Positions 240 to 8,906 of a stretch of 9,283 nt of DNA are shown one piece after another. Position 1 is the stretch's first letter; every line of letters starts with the position of its first letter. The notes under the pieces are model-generated. The model ran no database searches, was not told the DNA's origin, and was given only the letters and a program-made list of their open reading frames with translations. The DNA lies in the NCBI GenBank assembly GCA_024275095.1, contig JAJRZV010000051.1, positions 1-9,283 on the forward strand, written 5' to 3'. The stretch is from a bacterium (lineage in GTDB: Bacteria > JAJRZV01). The position numbers and the translations under genes are program-made.

Positions 240-1262
240 TTATTGTGCGCTGGAGTTGTAATGTGCGTTTGATTTACGTATTCGGGATAGTTTCTCCTTA
301 ACCATGGTTACAATTTTACTACTCAACAGGGAACCAGAAACCTTCTTCCACACCTCTTTCCCACGTGCGAGAAGCTGGTTATACACGTTTTCCTTTAATT
401 CAAGAGGTTTGAGCCCCCGATTGAGCATTTCCTGGTATGCGGTGCGGTTGTCTCTTCGAATAATTTTCATGAGAGGTTTTTCAAATTTTTTCCAGCACTC
501 CTTTAACACCTTCTGTTGTTTTGGATCGAGTTTGTTGTAGGCCCAGGTGGATACGAGTACAGCTGCGGGGGTGTAGGAGAAAAACCACGGAGTAATGTAC
601 TTGAGCTGGGTAAACCACTGGAGGCCCACCACTGCGTAGTCCGTGCCGTATACTCCCTCCACCATGCCTGTCGATAGGGCCGTGTACACATCAGGTAATT
701 GAAGAGGCACAATATTTGTGAAACCGAATCCCTTTAACGCTTCCAGGCCAATGGGATCTCCTGTCCAGTAGAACATGCGGGTATTGAGAAAGTCCTGGAG
801 TGTTTCTATTTTCCGGGTGAAGTAAAATCTTACGAGCCCTACTTCCAGGAATCCAAGAAGCTCAAAACCTTTCTGCCTGAACATTTCGCTGAACTCTTCC
901 TGCATGCTTTCGAGCAGATAATCCACTTCCTTTTCATTTTGGAAAAGAAAGGGCAGTTCCAGAACTCGAATATCAGGCGTAATTAATCCCAAGCCCACGA
1001 GCGTAAAGGCGGCACCGTGCAGTTGCCTTAGCCGGACCTTTTTAAGTTCCGCGGGCTCGTCGCCCATTGTTCCACCGAGGAACCACTGGATCCTCAGCTT
1101 ATCTGATGTCTCTTCGGCTACGCATTGTGCAAATCGTTTCCCGTAATCCGCCCACGAAGAATCTTCAGGAGAAATGGCCGCCAGCTTCAAGGTGATAGCA
1201 AAACCTGGCGTTGAAAAAAGAAAAAGGTTGGTCAATAAAACCTTGATAATTTTTCCGATCAT
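240..1262 (-). CDS. TRAP-type solute-binding protein, DctP-like (second of tandem pair)
   Basis: This 340-residue paralogue of the preceding protein has a signal peptide (about 1-22, cleavage after GFA) and the same blocks: LKLAAISPEDSSWADY (25-40), FLGGTMGDEP (61-70), LHGAAFTLVGLGLITPDIRVLELPFLF (81-107), and DVYTALSTGMVEGVYGTDYAVVGLQWF (191-217). The ligand-arginine segment reads NTRMFYWTGDP (160-170), with F164 at the usual Arg position. Arg162 sits where a lysine normally precedes it, so a shifted charge cannot be excluded. The ATG overlaps the upstream stop by 4 nt and has no good Shine-Dalgarno, so translation is probably coupled. Binding proteins of this sort deliver ligand in the periplasm to a DctQM permease, not seen here. 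The C-terminal 30 residues are basic and helical. Confidence 0.87.
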   Translation of the reverse strand: MIGKIIKVLLTNLFLFSTPGFAITLKLAAISPEDSSWADYGKRFAQCVAEETSDKLRIQWFLGGTMGDEPAELKKVRLRQLHGAAFTLVGLGLITPDIRVLELPFLFQNEKEVDYLLESMQEEFSEMFRQKGFELLGFLEVGLVRFYFTRKIETLQDFLNTRMFYWTGDPIGLEALKGFGFTNIVPLQLPDVYTALSTGMVEGVYGTDYAVVGLQWFTQLKYITPWFFSYTPAAVLVSTWAYNKLDPKQQKVLKECWKKFEKPLMKIIRRDNRTAYQEMLNRGLKPLELKENVYNQLLARGKEVWKKVSGSLLSSKIVTMVKEKLSRIRKSNAHYNSSAQ

Positions 1263-2311
1263 TGGGTATTTGACGTGTGCTCTTTCCTCTGACGATATTC
1301 GTTGAGGAGCGTGACAATTTCCTGATAGAGCTTTTCCCCCTTAATCATTTTTGCAATGCGGCGGTTAAGTTCTTCCGAACGCTTTTGGAGTTCTAAAAAG
1401 TCTTCTTTTCGACGGAAATTCACGGGTTTCAATCCTGACTTGATAAATTGCTCATATGTTTTCTGATTGAGTTCTCGTACACTGTCTCTCAATATGGGGA
1501 AATATTTCTGCCAGGCTTCCTTGATAATGTTGCGAAGATCCGGAGGGAGCATGTTGTATATTCTTTTTGTCAGTACAATTCCCCCGGACGTATAACCGGC
1601 GATCATCTGAGATACGTACTTTGCTTCTCTGTACCACTGGAGCCCGAGTGCTGCATAGGGTGGACAGTAGAATGTATCAACCATTCCTGTCTGGAGGCCT
1701 GGCAGTACTTCTGTGATATTGAGAATTACCGGGGTAACTCCAAGACCCTCACGAGCCATGATTTCCGCGAAGGGGTCTCCAGACCAGACCCACACACGGG
1801 CTTTTTTGAAAGCGTCAAAAGTATCCAGTTTGTATTTAGAAAAAAACCTTACCCCCCCGACTTCGGTCCACCCTATCAGTATGAAATTGTTTTTTTCCGC
1901 AATGGCTGCAAATTCATTAAACAAACGCTCACGGATATAATCCCACTCACCGTAATTCCGGTAAAAGAGCACAAGGTTGAGCAGGCGCACCTGAGGAATG
2001 ATGCTGGTCAATCCGAATTCTGTGAGTGCTGCTCCCTGGAGCTGATTTAATTTCATCTTTCTTACAATATTGGGTTCGTCCCCCATAACTCCACCAGGGT
2101 AGTGGATGATTTTCAGGCGCCCCTGGCTGCGTTCCTCCACCTCTTTTTTAAACATCCGGTAAATTTCACCCCACTGGCTATCTTCCGGCGCAATGGAAGC
2201 TATTTTGAGTATTATGGGAGATTCGGCGAATGCCGTTAGGGTAAAAGCCAGGTATGCACTACACCATATTAACGCTTTGAACTTTGATTTAAAAATTGTA
2301 AATAATGCCAT
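1259..2311 (-). CDS. TRAP-type solute-binding protein, DctP-like (first of tandem pair)
   Basis: I start this 350-residue protein at the ATG at 2311, which follows AAGGGG and gives a clean Sec signal peptide (hydrophobic core about 12-26, cleavage after AFA at 29). The mature protein has the DctP pattern: ILKIASIAPEDSQWGE, GRLKIIHYPGGVMGDEP (64-80), LQGAALTEFGL, and EVLPGLQTGMVDTFYCPPYAALGLQWY (201-227). In typical DctP proteins the segment LKGLKIRVP supplies an arginine that clamps the ligand carboxylate. Here the segment is KKARVWVWSGDP (169-180) and the aligned residue is W174. The pocket is therefore predicted to be aromatic and perhaps to bind an uncharged or hydrophobic ligand. The stop overlaps the next gene as ATGA. 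No DctQ or DctM permease is in view. Confidence 0.87.
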   Translation of the reverse strand: MALFTIFKSKFKALIWCSAYLAFTLTAFAESPIILKIASIAPEDSQWGEIYRMFKKEVEERSQGRLKIIHYPGGVMGDEPNIVRKMKLNQLQGAALTEFGLTSIIPQVRLLNLVLFYRNYGEWDYIRERLFNEFAAIAEKNNFILIGWTEVGGVRFFSKYKLDTFDAFKKARVWVWSGDPFAEIMAREGLGVTPVILNITEVLPGLQTGMVDTFYCPPYAALGLQWYREAKYVSQMIAGYTSGGIVLTKRIYNMLPPDLRNIIKEAWQKYFPILRDSVRELNQKTYEQFIKSGLKPVNFRRKEDFLELQKRSEELNRRIAKMIKGEKLYQEIVTLLNEYRQRKEHTSNTQ

Positions 2312-4992: not shown

Positions 4993-5424
4993 TCAGTACT
5001 GTGTTTCCGCCGGGGGATCTCCGATAACTTTCACAATGACAGTACGACGTCGCGGTCCGTCGAGTTCATAAAGAAATATTCCCTGCCATTGTCCAAGATC
5101 CACCCGCCCTTCGCTGACGGGAATAACCACGCTTGAACCAACGAGAAGCTGTTTGAGATGGGCCGAGGCATTACCTCCGCCGTGCTGGTTGTGCAAATAC
5201 GAGGGTTTGTTGGGGATCTGTTCTTCTAAAAAATTATCTATATCAACAGGCAGGAAACGGTCCGTGTTGCCCAGGTAGATACCCGCGGTTGTATGGCCTG
5301 TGAATACGAGCACCATTCCATCGTGTATTCCACTTTTGTGAACAATAGATTCAACCTGTCCAGTGATATCAAGACTTCCTGACTTCCGTGTTGTTTTCAA
5401 CAGTATTTCACTTGTGTAGACCAC
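4993..5424 (-). CDS. yjbQ: YjbQ family (UPF0047) protein
   Basis: This 143-residue protein spans the whole YjbQ fold. Recognisable blocks are VFTGHTTAGI (40-49), YLHNQHGGGNASAHL (76-90), the LLVGSSVVIPV strand (93-103), and LGQWQGIFLYELDGPRRR (110-127), which carries the family's Gly-x-Trp-Gln and Asp-Gly-Pro-Arg signature. The family is widespread; weak thiamin phosphate synthase activity has been reported for some members, but the physiological role is unsettled. The segment after HTTAG, usually containing an Asn-Glu pair, here reads YLGNTDRFLPVD, a moderate departure from the common pattern. It starts with GTG behind AGGAGG and overlaps the lipoprotein gene by 17 nt, making it the last gene of the dapA unit. 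No clear terminator follows it. Confidence 0.92.
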   Translation of the reverse strand: MVYTSEILLKTTRKSGSLDITGQVESIVHKSGIHDGMVLVFTGHTTAGIYLGNTDRFLPVDIDNFLEEQIPNKPSYLHNQHGGGNASAHLKQLLVGSSVVIPVSEGRVDLGQWQGIFLYELDGPRRRTVIVKVIGDPPAETQY

Positions 5425-6262
5425 TGGCTCCCTCCTGTGGAATTTTTATATTAAGGATTCTTGTCCAACCTGCGGTTCTCAAAGAAGGAATAAATATTTT
5501 TACCCATCTTCCTTCTCGTGCGAGTGGAACCACTCGCACACCTCTTTCAAAAGCCCCTGCCACCCGACAGCGAATTGAAGGACATGTTCTTATGACCCCC
5601 TTCCGCTGGGTTATAAGAAGTTTCGGACGTGGAGGGGTAGACCAGCTGGGTTTCATTTTCGTTGCAGACGGTACAGGTGCAGCACACCCCAGCCTGGTAA
5701 GAATGCTTTCTCCTGTTTGCAATTTCTGGGCTGTAATGATTGCTCCTGTTTCTACGTTTACGGCCTTCACAATAATTTCGAGCCCGTTTTTCAATTTGTA
5801 GTACTTACCAAGTAAAACCACGTTAACTCCCAAAAGTTTCCCGGCTTGGGGTGCAGATGATTCATCTATCAGTCCTGAAATAGAGAACTTTTGTTCTTTG
5901 AGAACAGCGCTTACCTGCGTGCGCTCTACAATTGTAAACTCAGGATACCTGGTGAGTATGGTTGATAAATTATCAGCCAGGTAATCACCAATTGGACATT
6001 CCTTCTCGAGAGGCCCGGAAAATGAAAGCACAGCGATTCTCTTTTCCGGCAGTGTTCTGAGTTTTTCCACCAGTGCGCTGATGACTGAGGGGAATGTCTG
6101 TTCTTTTTCAGGAACAGGAGAAGTAATTGTTCTTTTCTCGGGCGGAAAAGGAAGAGGTCCGGCAGAAGGTCCTGGTGCACATGCGGAAATGGTAAGTGTC
6201 AACATGAGGGAACTAATTGAAAAGATTGTACCTGAAATACAAACAGTACCGTCGGTTTTCAT
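5408..6262 (-). CDS. FlgO/CsgG-like lipoprotein with C-terminal SH3-like domain
   Basis: The 284-residue product begins with a lipoprotein signal: hydrophobic core at about 9-27 and lipobox I-S-A-C with the modified cysteine at 28. A Pro/Ser-rich linker follows (29-55). Residues 75-180 resemble FlgO/CsgG-type periplasmic domains: RIAVLSFSG, IGDYLADNLS, FTIVERTQVSAVLKEQK, SGLIDESSAPQAGKLLGVNVVLLGKY, and VNVETGAIITAQK. Residues 215-272 look like a bacterial SH3 domain (LLITQRKGVIRTCPS...GRWVKIFI...GWTRIL), often used to bind peptidoglycan. I chose the ATG at 6262 because it forms ATGA with the dapB stop and directly precedes the signal peptide; the frame is open upstream only because it lies inside dapB. 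Its last 17 nt overlap yjbQ. It probably sits in the envelope; no partner is visible and the precise role is unknown. Confidence 0.78.
   Translation of the reverse strand: MKTDGTVCISGTIFSISSLMLTLTISACAPGPSAGPLPFPPEKRTITSPVPEKEQTFPSVISALVEKLRTLPEKRIAVLSFSGPLEKECPIGDYLADNLSTILTRYPEFTIVERTQVSAVLKEQKFSISGLIDESSAPQAGKLLGVNVVLLGKYYKLKNGLEIIVKAVNVETGAIITAQKLQTGESILTRLGCAAPVPSATKMKPSWSTPPRPKLLITQRKGVIRTCPSIRCRVAGAFERGVRVVPLAREGRWVKIFIPSLRTAGWTRILNIKIPQEGASGLHK
5431..5436 (-). promoter_or_regulatory. Shine-Dalgarno for yjbQ embedded in the upstream gene
   Basis: The minus strand reads AGGAGG, then GAGCCA and GTG. The site lies in the final codons of the lipoprotein gene, so yjbQ initiates while the upstream message is still being translated. 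It supports the GTG start at 5424. Confidence 0.8.
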
Positions 6263-7065
6263 CGGGTGTCCCCGTGAATTGATATGCCCAGTACATCCAC
6301 CATGGAGTAAATTCCTGGTTCGCGCCCCTGCACCCATTCGGCTCCTTTCACAGCTCCTCTTGCAAAAACCATGCGTGAGTGAGCTCTGTGAGTAATTTCG
6401 AGTCTTTCATCTGGTCCGAGAAAATAGACGGTGTGGTCGCCCACAACATCTCCACCTCTCAACGCCATTACACCGATCTGATTTTGAGGTCGTGGACCTG
6501 TCCGTCCCGAACGTCCGAACATCCCGGAAGACTGAACCGTCATTCCCCGTGCTTGTGCAAGCACATCGAGAAGTTTGAGAGCTGTGCCACTGGGTGCATC
6601 AACCTTGTTGCGATGATGTATTTCTGCAATTTCTATATCAAATTCAGGCCCCAGAGCTGAAGCAATAATTTTTGCAACGGCGAACAGCATGTTGACCCCT
6701 GGAGACATGTTGGGGGACTGGACTACAGGAACTTTTTGTGAAAGGGCCTCTATTAATCTGAACACATCTTCACCGAGTCCTGTTGTACCTGTAACAAGGG
6801 GAATGCTGTGCGTTTCACATTCTTTGACGGCTGTAGCGGTTCCATCCGGAGTCGAGAAGTCTATAACCACGTCGGGCTTTTCCGGAATATCGCTTATAAA
6901 TGAGCGTATGGGAATGATTTTTTCGTGATGGGAGGTAATATATGTATTGCACATCGAGTGATCCGGGCGCTCAAGCCCACCAACTACCACGTGTCCGGCT
7001 TCTTCCGCAGCCTGGATAACCATGCGGCCCATGCGGCCGCACGCGCCGACTACAATAATTTTCAC
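6259..7065 (-). CDS. dapB: 4-hydroxy-tetrahydrodipicolinate reductase DapB
   Basis: DapB reduces the DapA product with NAD(P)H to tetrahydrodipicolinate. The 268-residue protein starts with the Rossmann motif VVGACGRMGRM (5-15; the third glycine-motif residue is Cys rather than the common Ala). It continues with DFSTPDGT (69-76), GTTGL (93-97), SPNMSPGVN (117-125) and the catalytic signature EIHHRNKVDAPSGTA (148-162), where H150 and K154 match the catalytic His and Lys of the family. The C-terminus has the usual HRAHSRMVFARGA and PGIYSMVDVLG segments. The start is GTG, overlapping the dapA stop by 4 nt with only a weak Shine-Dalgarno, so translation probably depends on dapA. The stop overlaps the next gene's ATG as ATGA. 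Confidence 0.97.
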   Translation of the reverse strand: MKIIVVGACGRMGRMVIQAAEEAGHVVVGGLERPDHSMCNTYITSHHEKIIPIRSFISDIPEKPDVVIDFSTPDGTATAVKECETHSIPLVTGTTGLGEDVFRLIEALSQKVPVVQSPNMSPGVNMLFAVAKIIASALGPEFDIEIAEIHHRNKVDAPSGTALKLLDVLAQARGMTVQSSGMFGRSGRTGPRPQNQIGVMALRGGDVVGDHTVYFLGPDERLEITHRAHSRMVFARGAVKGAEWVQGREPGIYSMVDVLGISIHGDTR

Positions 7066-8012: not shown

Positions 8013-8906
8013 TCACCCTAAAGTGGACTCGCCGATTGCAGCGCGGGCCAGTTCGTACGCTCTGCTCGCATCTGCCAGAGCGGTTTCCGCATCCTGACGT
8101 GTAAAAAGATTTTTCTTTTTATTTGTCCATTCATCGGTATAGAAACTGAAATCCCACTCGTTGTGCAAGCCTTTGAATATCCCCGCGAGCTCGGTGATCT
8201 GGTTACACGCTTTACCGTGAAATCTGTGAGTAATGGTTTTTAAAAATGTGGCGGTGGTCACGTGACCCGGAATTTCAATTCCGTAGGCACGCAGGAGTGC
8301 CCGGATAGAAAAGGTTATGCTTTCAATGGCTTCTCTCACTACTACGTTCCAGAACTGGTCCTGAAGTGCGCGGCGGCCCTGTTCAAGGTGATACCGTGAC
8401 TGTTGAAGGCTCGCTGGTGCGTATTCCACCACATGCGGCGCTTTCCAGTACCATAACCGGCCGATCCACACGCGCTGAGCCCCTTTTTCTTTCAGATACG
8501 AACGAAGTTTCGCGATTTTGTTGGTGAAGAACCAGTCCTTGTCGTAAAGCACCACAGCGTCTTCGGTCATGTCCAGATAAAGGGGTGAAAATGTATCAAG
8601 CTCGTTCACACTTTTTACAAGAACAATTACGTCCGTAAGGATGCCTTCTTCATGGTAAAGGATTTCAACATCACGATTGAGTGAACGCAGGGCTTTCTCC
8701 ACGAGTGAGTACCTCTCTCTCCGGGCTTCCGGCAATTCATTGAAAACCGCGAGGATATTGATGTCTGAGCTTTCGTGACAATCACCGCGTGCCACTGAAC
8801 CGTAGAGGACAACTGAAACAATACGCTCGCGGTAAAACTCCAATAGGTCATCCCGTACTCTTTCGGCAAGAGATAGCAGTTTTTGACGCAGAGGTTGTTC
8901 GTTCAT
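8013..8906 (-). CDS. Nucleotidyltransferase-HEPN fusion protein, atypical metal motif
   Basis: This 297-residue protein has an N-terminal MNT-type nucleotidyltransferase fold: [11 protein letters not shown] (residues 32-42; G36-S37 is the nucleotide-binding turn), then SSDIN (46-50) and a possible third acidic position at D92. The usual metal pair is D-x-D; here it reads D48-I-N50, so the second aspartate is asparagine. A helical region from about 165 to 290 ([20 protein letters not shown] and onward) looks like a HEPN domain. Its usual R-x4-6-H RNase motif is not apparent; the equivalent segment reads [13 protein letters not shown] and HEPN are often separate proteins in toxin-antitoxin or antibiotic-modifying systems; here they are one chain. 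The ATG overlaps the ligA stop (ATGA), with an AGAGGA Shine-Dalgarno inside ligA. The substrate is unknown, and weak or absent transferase activity is possible. Confidence 0.8.

Follow-up and report, generated by a model that had tools for sequence, protein, structure and literature searches.

The DctP-family proteins A and B, encoded in tandem within the window (the whole stretch of 9,283 nucleotides that was analysed), are probably orphan receptors of the TPAT type which, together with five paralogues, serve as alternative receptors sharing one lipid-type TatT/DctQM importer. What is unusual about the pair is the surplus of receptors over permeases in its genome and not the substitution of an arginine in the binding pocket.

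The gene pair and its products

Both genes lie on the minus strand, gene A at positions 1259 to 2311 and gene B at positions 240 to 1262, and an ATGA stop/start overlap (1259 to 1262, minus strand) couples A to B, just as the initial annotation had described for two overlapping DctP-family reading frames. Gene A starts with an ATG preceded by AAGGGG; the frame can alternatively be read from a TTG at 2353, and the pocket residue of A discussed below is Trp174 when counted from the ATG or Trp188 when counted from the TTG. By inspection, each protein begins with a Sec signal peptide, and both are presumably exported. A scan for promoters and terminators around A and B gave a result no better than chance.

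Both proteins match the DctP profile PF03480 (E = 1e-31 and 1e-36) as well as the NCBIfam family TRAP_S1. Structure models were built from a thin alignment of five sequences. In the case of B (pLDDT 77) all structural matches were DctP structures, with Tp0957 of Treponema pallidum in third place (Z 30.7) within a tied top group. The model of A is poor (pLDDT 64) and matched Tp0957 first (Z 20.2), tied with others. The models support a DctP fold, not any ligand. By profile match and two-lobed fold, A and B classify as DctP-type TRAP receptors.

The clamp position of the binding pocket

When A and B were compared with solved DctP/SiaP proteins, pairwise and multiple alignments paired the K-x-R-V motif with R-V-W-V in A and with R-M-F-Y in B. 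Arg147 of SiaP aligns with Trp174 of A and Phe164 of B, with no gap between the 'W-x-E-x-G' segment and the motif, and Arg172 of A and Arg162 of B fall on the lysine of K-x-R, not on the clamp arginine. Similarly, the alignment of 4xfe with A and B contains zero gaps between the motif and the W/F-x-E-V-G segment upstream of it, and a two-residue shift placing Arg172 or Arg162 on the clamp position would therefore need an insertion or deletion. Judged from the gap-free alignment, these two residues are ruled out as the clamp. The second canonical pocket arginine, Arg127 of SiaP, is a valine in both proteins, each of which keeps an arginine one residue past that position. The alignments thus agree with the earlier proposal that the carboxylate-clamping arginine is replaced by Trp in A and by Phe in B, and neither protein falls among carboxylate-specific DctP receptors, which have arginine at the SiaP Arg147 position.

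The replaced residues lie in the sequences RVWVWSGDP of A (1772 to 1798, minus strand) and RMFYWTGDP of B (753 to 779, minus strand), which align as versions of the motif K/R-x-W-x-W-x-G-D, the first aromatic residue being Phe in the case of B. TPAT-specific positions are kept in both proteins, for example W61, T111, G114, E136, W190, D193, Q239 and W240 (numbering of A from the TTG), and the proteins therefore do not look decayed.

Among 6142 DctP/SiaP sequences, the SiaP Arg147 position is arginine in 96.8%, and the commonest replacement in those that lack it is Phe (PMC4646407), so that loss of the arginine as such is not new. The SiaP variant R147A still coordinates its ligand, via water molecules, and when substrate is abundant the transporter functions even if Arg147 is missing (PMC4646407). 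These properties of SiaP, as well as the arginine next to the Arg127 position in A and B, would be compatible with receptors for an ordinary organic acid whose carboxylate is bound through a different arginine or through water. We consider such a ligand improbable, as both canonical arginines are gone and the aromatic replacement, unlike a simple loss, is conserved across the TPAT clade. Fatty acids also carry a carboxylate, so the missing Arg147 does not exclude them, and the 'non-carboxylate' ligand suggested in the initial annotation is not to be concluded.

Relationship to TPAT receptors

TatT was searched for in 386 genomes and was present in 92 of them, and 60 TatT loci from genomes of many families, the locus of the present genome included, were compared. 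The usual gene order was T-P-Q-M or T-P-QM, and the order T-P-P-Q-M was encountered only in the genome that carries A and B. At the Arg147 column, the 58 DctP proteins encoded near TatT in the other genomes have Trp (47), Phe (8), Tyr (2) or His (1), and none has Arg; all seven DctP proteins of the present genome have Trp or Phe. As a control, DctP proteins from the surveyed genomes with low TPAT-profile scores were inspected, and 19 distinct ones have Arg at this column, with Cys, Ala, Pro, Gly or Glu in a few others. The exception is one Arg-type control DctP that adjoins a weak TatT match (G375:C18).

In the phylogenetic tree, the TatT-linked DctP proteins and all seven DctP proteins of the present genome form a clade of 66 sequences (support 100/100), apart from the Arg-type proteins. 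Within it, A and B form a moderately supported sister pair (83/92), C6a groups with C108 and C69, and C6b groups with C120. Pairwise identities among the seven paralogues range from 26 to 48%, and the duplications therefore look old. A search of genome contigs for close relatives of A and B returned only distant Arg-type DctP proteins, the plasmid records among the matches listed contained only distant DctP proteins (22-27% identity), and no relatives were found in a search of viral sequences.

The earlier suggestion of a link to TPAT-type P components is strongly supported by the 100/100 clade, by the absence of Arg in all 58 TatT-near DctP proteins and by a TatT-DctP-DctP-DctQ-DctM operon in the same genome. 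A and B group with TatT-neighbour DctP proteins and have Trp and Phe, respectively, at the Arg147 position, as expected for TPAT P components. Across the aligned sequences, K/R-x-W-x-W-x-G-D reads as a signature of the TPAT P component and not as a peculiarity of this pair, and the alanine of Treponema is the divergent case. TatP homologues have been described as having mostly alanine at the Arg147 position (PMC5812351), a statement with which our sample (Trp in 47 of 58) disagrees. Arginine loss is the rule in the TPAT family and is less remarkable than the initial annotation assumed.

Genomic context, receptor surplus and proposed function

Position 1 of the window lies at the end of contig C12. 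Positions 1 to 141 recur once in the assembly, at C96:1-141 in reverse orientation and with 100% identity, and this unique 141-bp overlap argues for a join of C12 to C96, which fits a break in the assembly graph. Beyond this join, genes in the same direction encode a fusion of an MSMEG_0568-like radical SAM protein with a GNAT domain and then an AIR-synthase-like protein. A second MSMEG_0568-type radical SAM gene (L130:2496-3596), which adjoins an AIR-synthase-like gene, is split by an in-frame TAA and may reflect a pseudogene, an error or readthrough. Within the window, the minus strand also encodes a protein that contains a CsgG-like domain but matches no NCBIfam family (5408 to 6337) and a protein in which a nucleotidyltransferase domain is followed by a HEPN domain (8013 to 8906), resembling fused parts of a MntA/HEPN toxin-antitoxin system.

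No TatT, DctQ or DctM gene was found near the pair, no lipid-metabolism genes lie beside it, and no DctQM was detected to its left across ~15 kb of the joined contig C96. A normal C4-dicarboxylate DctQM just past the left edge is rejected, as C96 carries the radical-SAM and AIR-synthase-like genes instead. Neither the window nor the initial 15 kb of C96 encodes TatT or DctQM, and we therefore class A and B as orphan paralogues of TPAT P components and not as a complete TPAT locus.

The assembly (136 contigs, 97% complete) contains seven DctP, one DctQ and one DctM, and its TatT matches comprise a strong and a marginal one. A single operon on contig C6 (L009:4028-8937) holds the only DctQ, the only DctM and the strong TatT of the genome. 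Its order is TatT-DctP-DctP-DctQ-DctM, and from the first DctP up to DctM neighbouring genes overlap by four bases. The absence of permease genes noted in the initial annotation therefore stands locally, ~15 kb leftward included, but the seven receptors go with a single distant DctQM. A second, dedicated DctQM or another membrane partner might lie in the part of the genome missing from this fragmented assembly; this is very improbable, since the left edge is joined to C96, with other genes beyond, and no second DctQ or DctM was found in the assembly, even as a fragment.

A surplus of receptors over permeases recurs in unrelated genomes. G150 has 12 DctP, all of the Trp type, and one DctM above the cut-off, and four of its DctP genes follow in a row directly after TatT (G150:C20, L161:609-5187). 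G289 combines seven DctP, six with Trp and one with Phe, with a single strong DctM, and G375 has ten DctP matches and two DctM, whereas most other genomes with TatT have one or two DctP.

Given seven receptors for one QM and a joined region in which no permease gene lies close to A and B, it is conceivable, if unlikely, that the orphan receptors feed no permease and act as ligand sensors or periplasmic lipid carriers, a role proposed for excess Bug proteins in the TTT family; a signalling role has been suggested for surplus TTT receptors (PMC5812351). However, no sensor kinase or regulator gene was seen next to the pair, and most of the TPAT signature positions are retained.

Two other orphan DctP genes of this genome (L011:5962-12558 and L010:7180-9004) have FadB/thiolase genes and a gene for a MaoC-like hydratase in their vicinity, a hint of a link to lipids. 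Beta-oxidation genes occur at only 2 of the ~60 TatT loci surveyed, which makes the argument from lipid context weak and leaves such a context unsupported as a general TPAT feature.

We favor the shared-importer reading, in which each receptor, presumably exported, folds as a two-lobed DctP clam-shell whose pocket wall is, by alignment, rebuilt with aromatic and aliphatic residues, Trp or Phe for Arg147 and Val for Arg127. By analogy with TatP of Treponema, the ligand would most likely be lipid-like or otherwise largely apolar. The TatT lipoprotein may hand it to the receptors, which would pass it to the genome's only DctQM, encoded with TatT on C6 and served in turn by A, B and the five other paralogues as alternative receptors. 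As the initial annotation proposed, A and B might also differ in their ligands or act as a relay or heterodimer. A TRAP receptor usually has a permease of its own, which counts against shared use of one DctQM. If true, such sharing would be an uncommon arrangement among TRAP transporters and a testable route of lipid uptake in poorly studied bacteria. More tentatively, TPAT systems of several unrelated lineages might be many-receptor importers, in which divergent Trp-type receptors, some of them in tandem, share one TatT/DctQM and serve several apolar ligands; TPAT genomes point to a recurring excess of receptors over permeases, and the aromatic signature, unlike the Treponema alanine, makes orphan members of the family recognisable.

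The closest known system is the TPAT of T. pallidum, formed by TatP(T) (Tp0957) and TatT (Tp0956) (PDB 3u65, 4di3, 4di4). Like Tp0957, which is among the best structural matches of the models, A and B have a DctP fold and no equivalent of Arg147, and their genome also holds a TatT homologue. In contrast to the Trp and Phe of A and B, Tp0957 has Ala at the Arg147 column (PMC4646407), and it is a single receptor, a lipoprotein encoded in its own operon (PMC5812351), whereas A and B have plain signal peptides and neither TatT nor QM alongside. With canonical DctP/SiaP receptors, A and B have in common the fold and PF03480, but not the arginine at the SiaP Arg147 position. The surplus Bug/TctC receptors of Bordetella likewise combine many receptors and orphan genes with few membrane partners (PMC5812351), although they belong to an unrelated transporter family (TTT).
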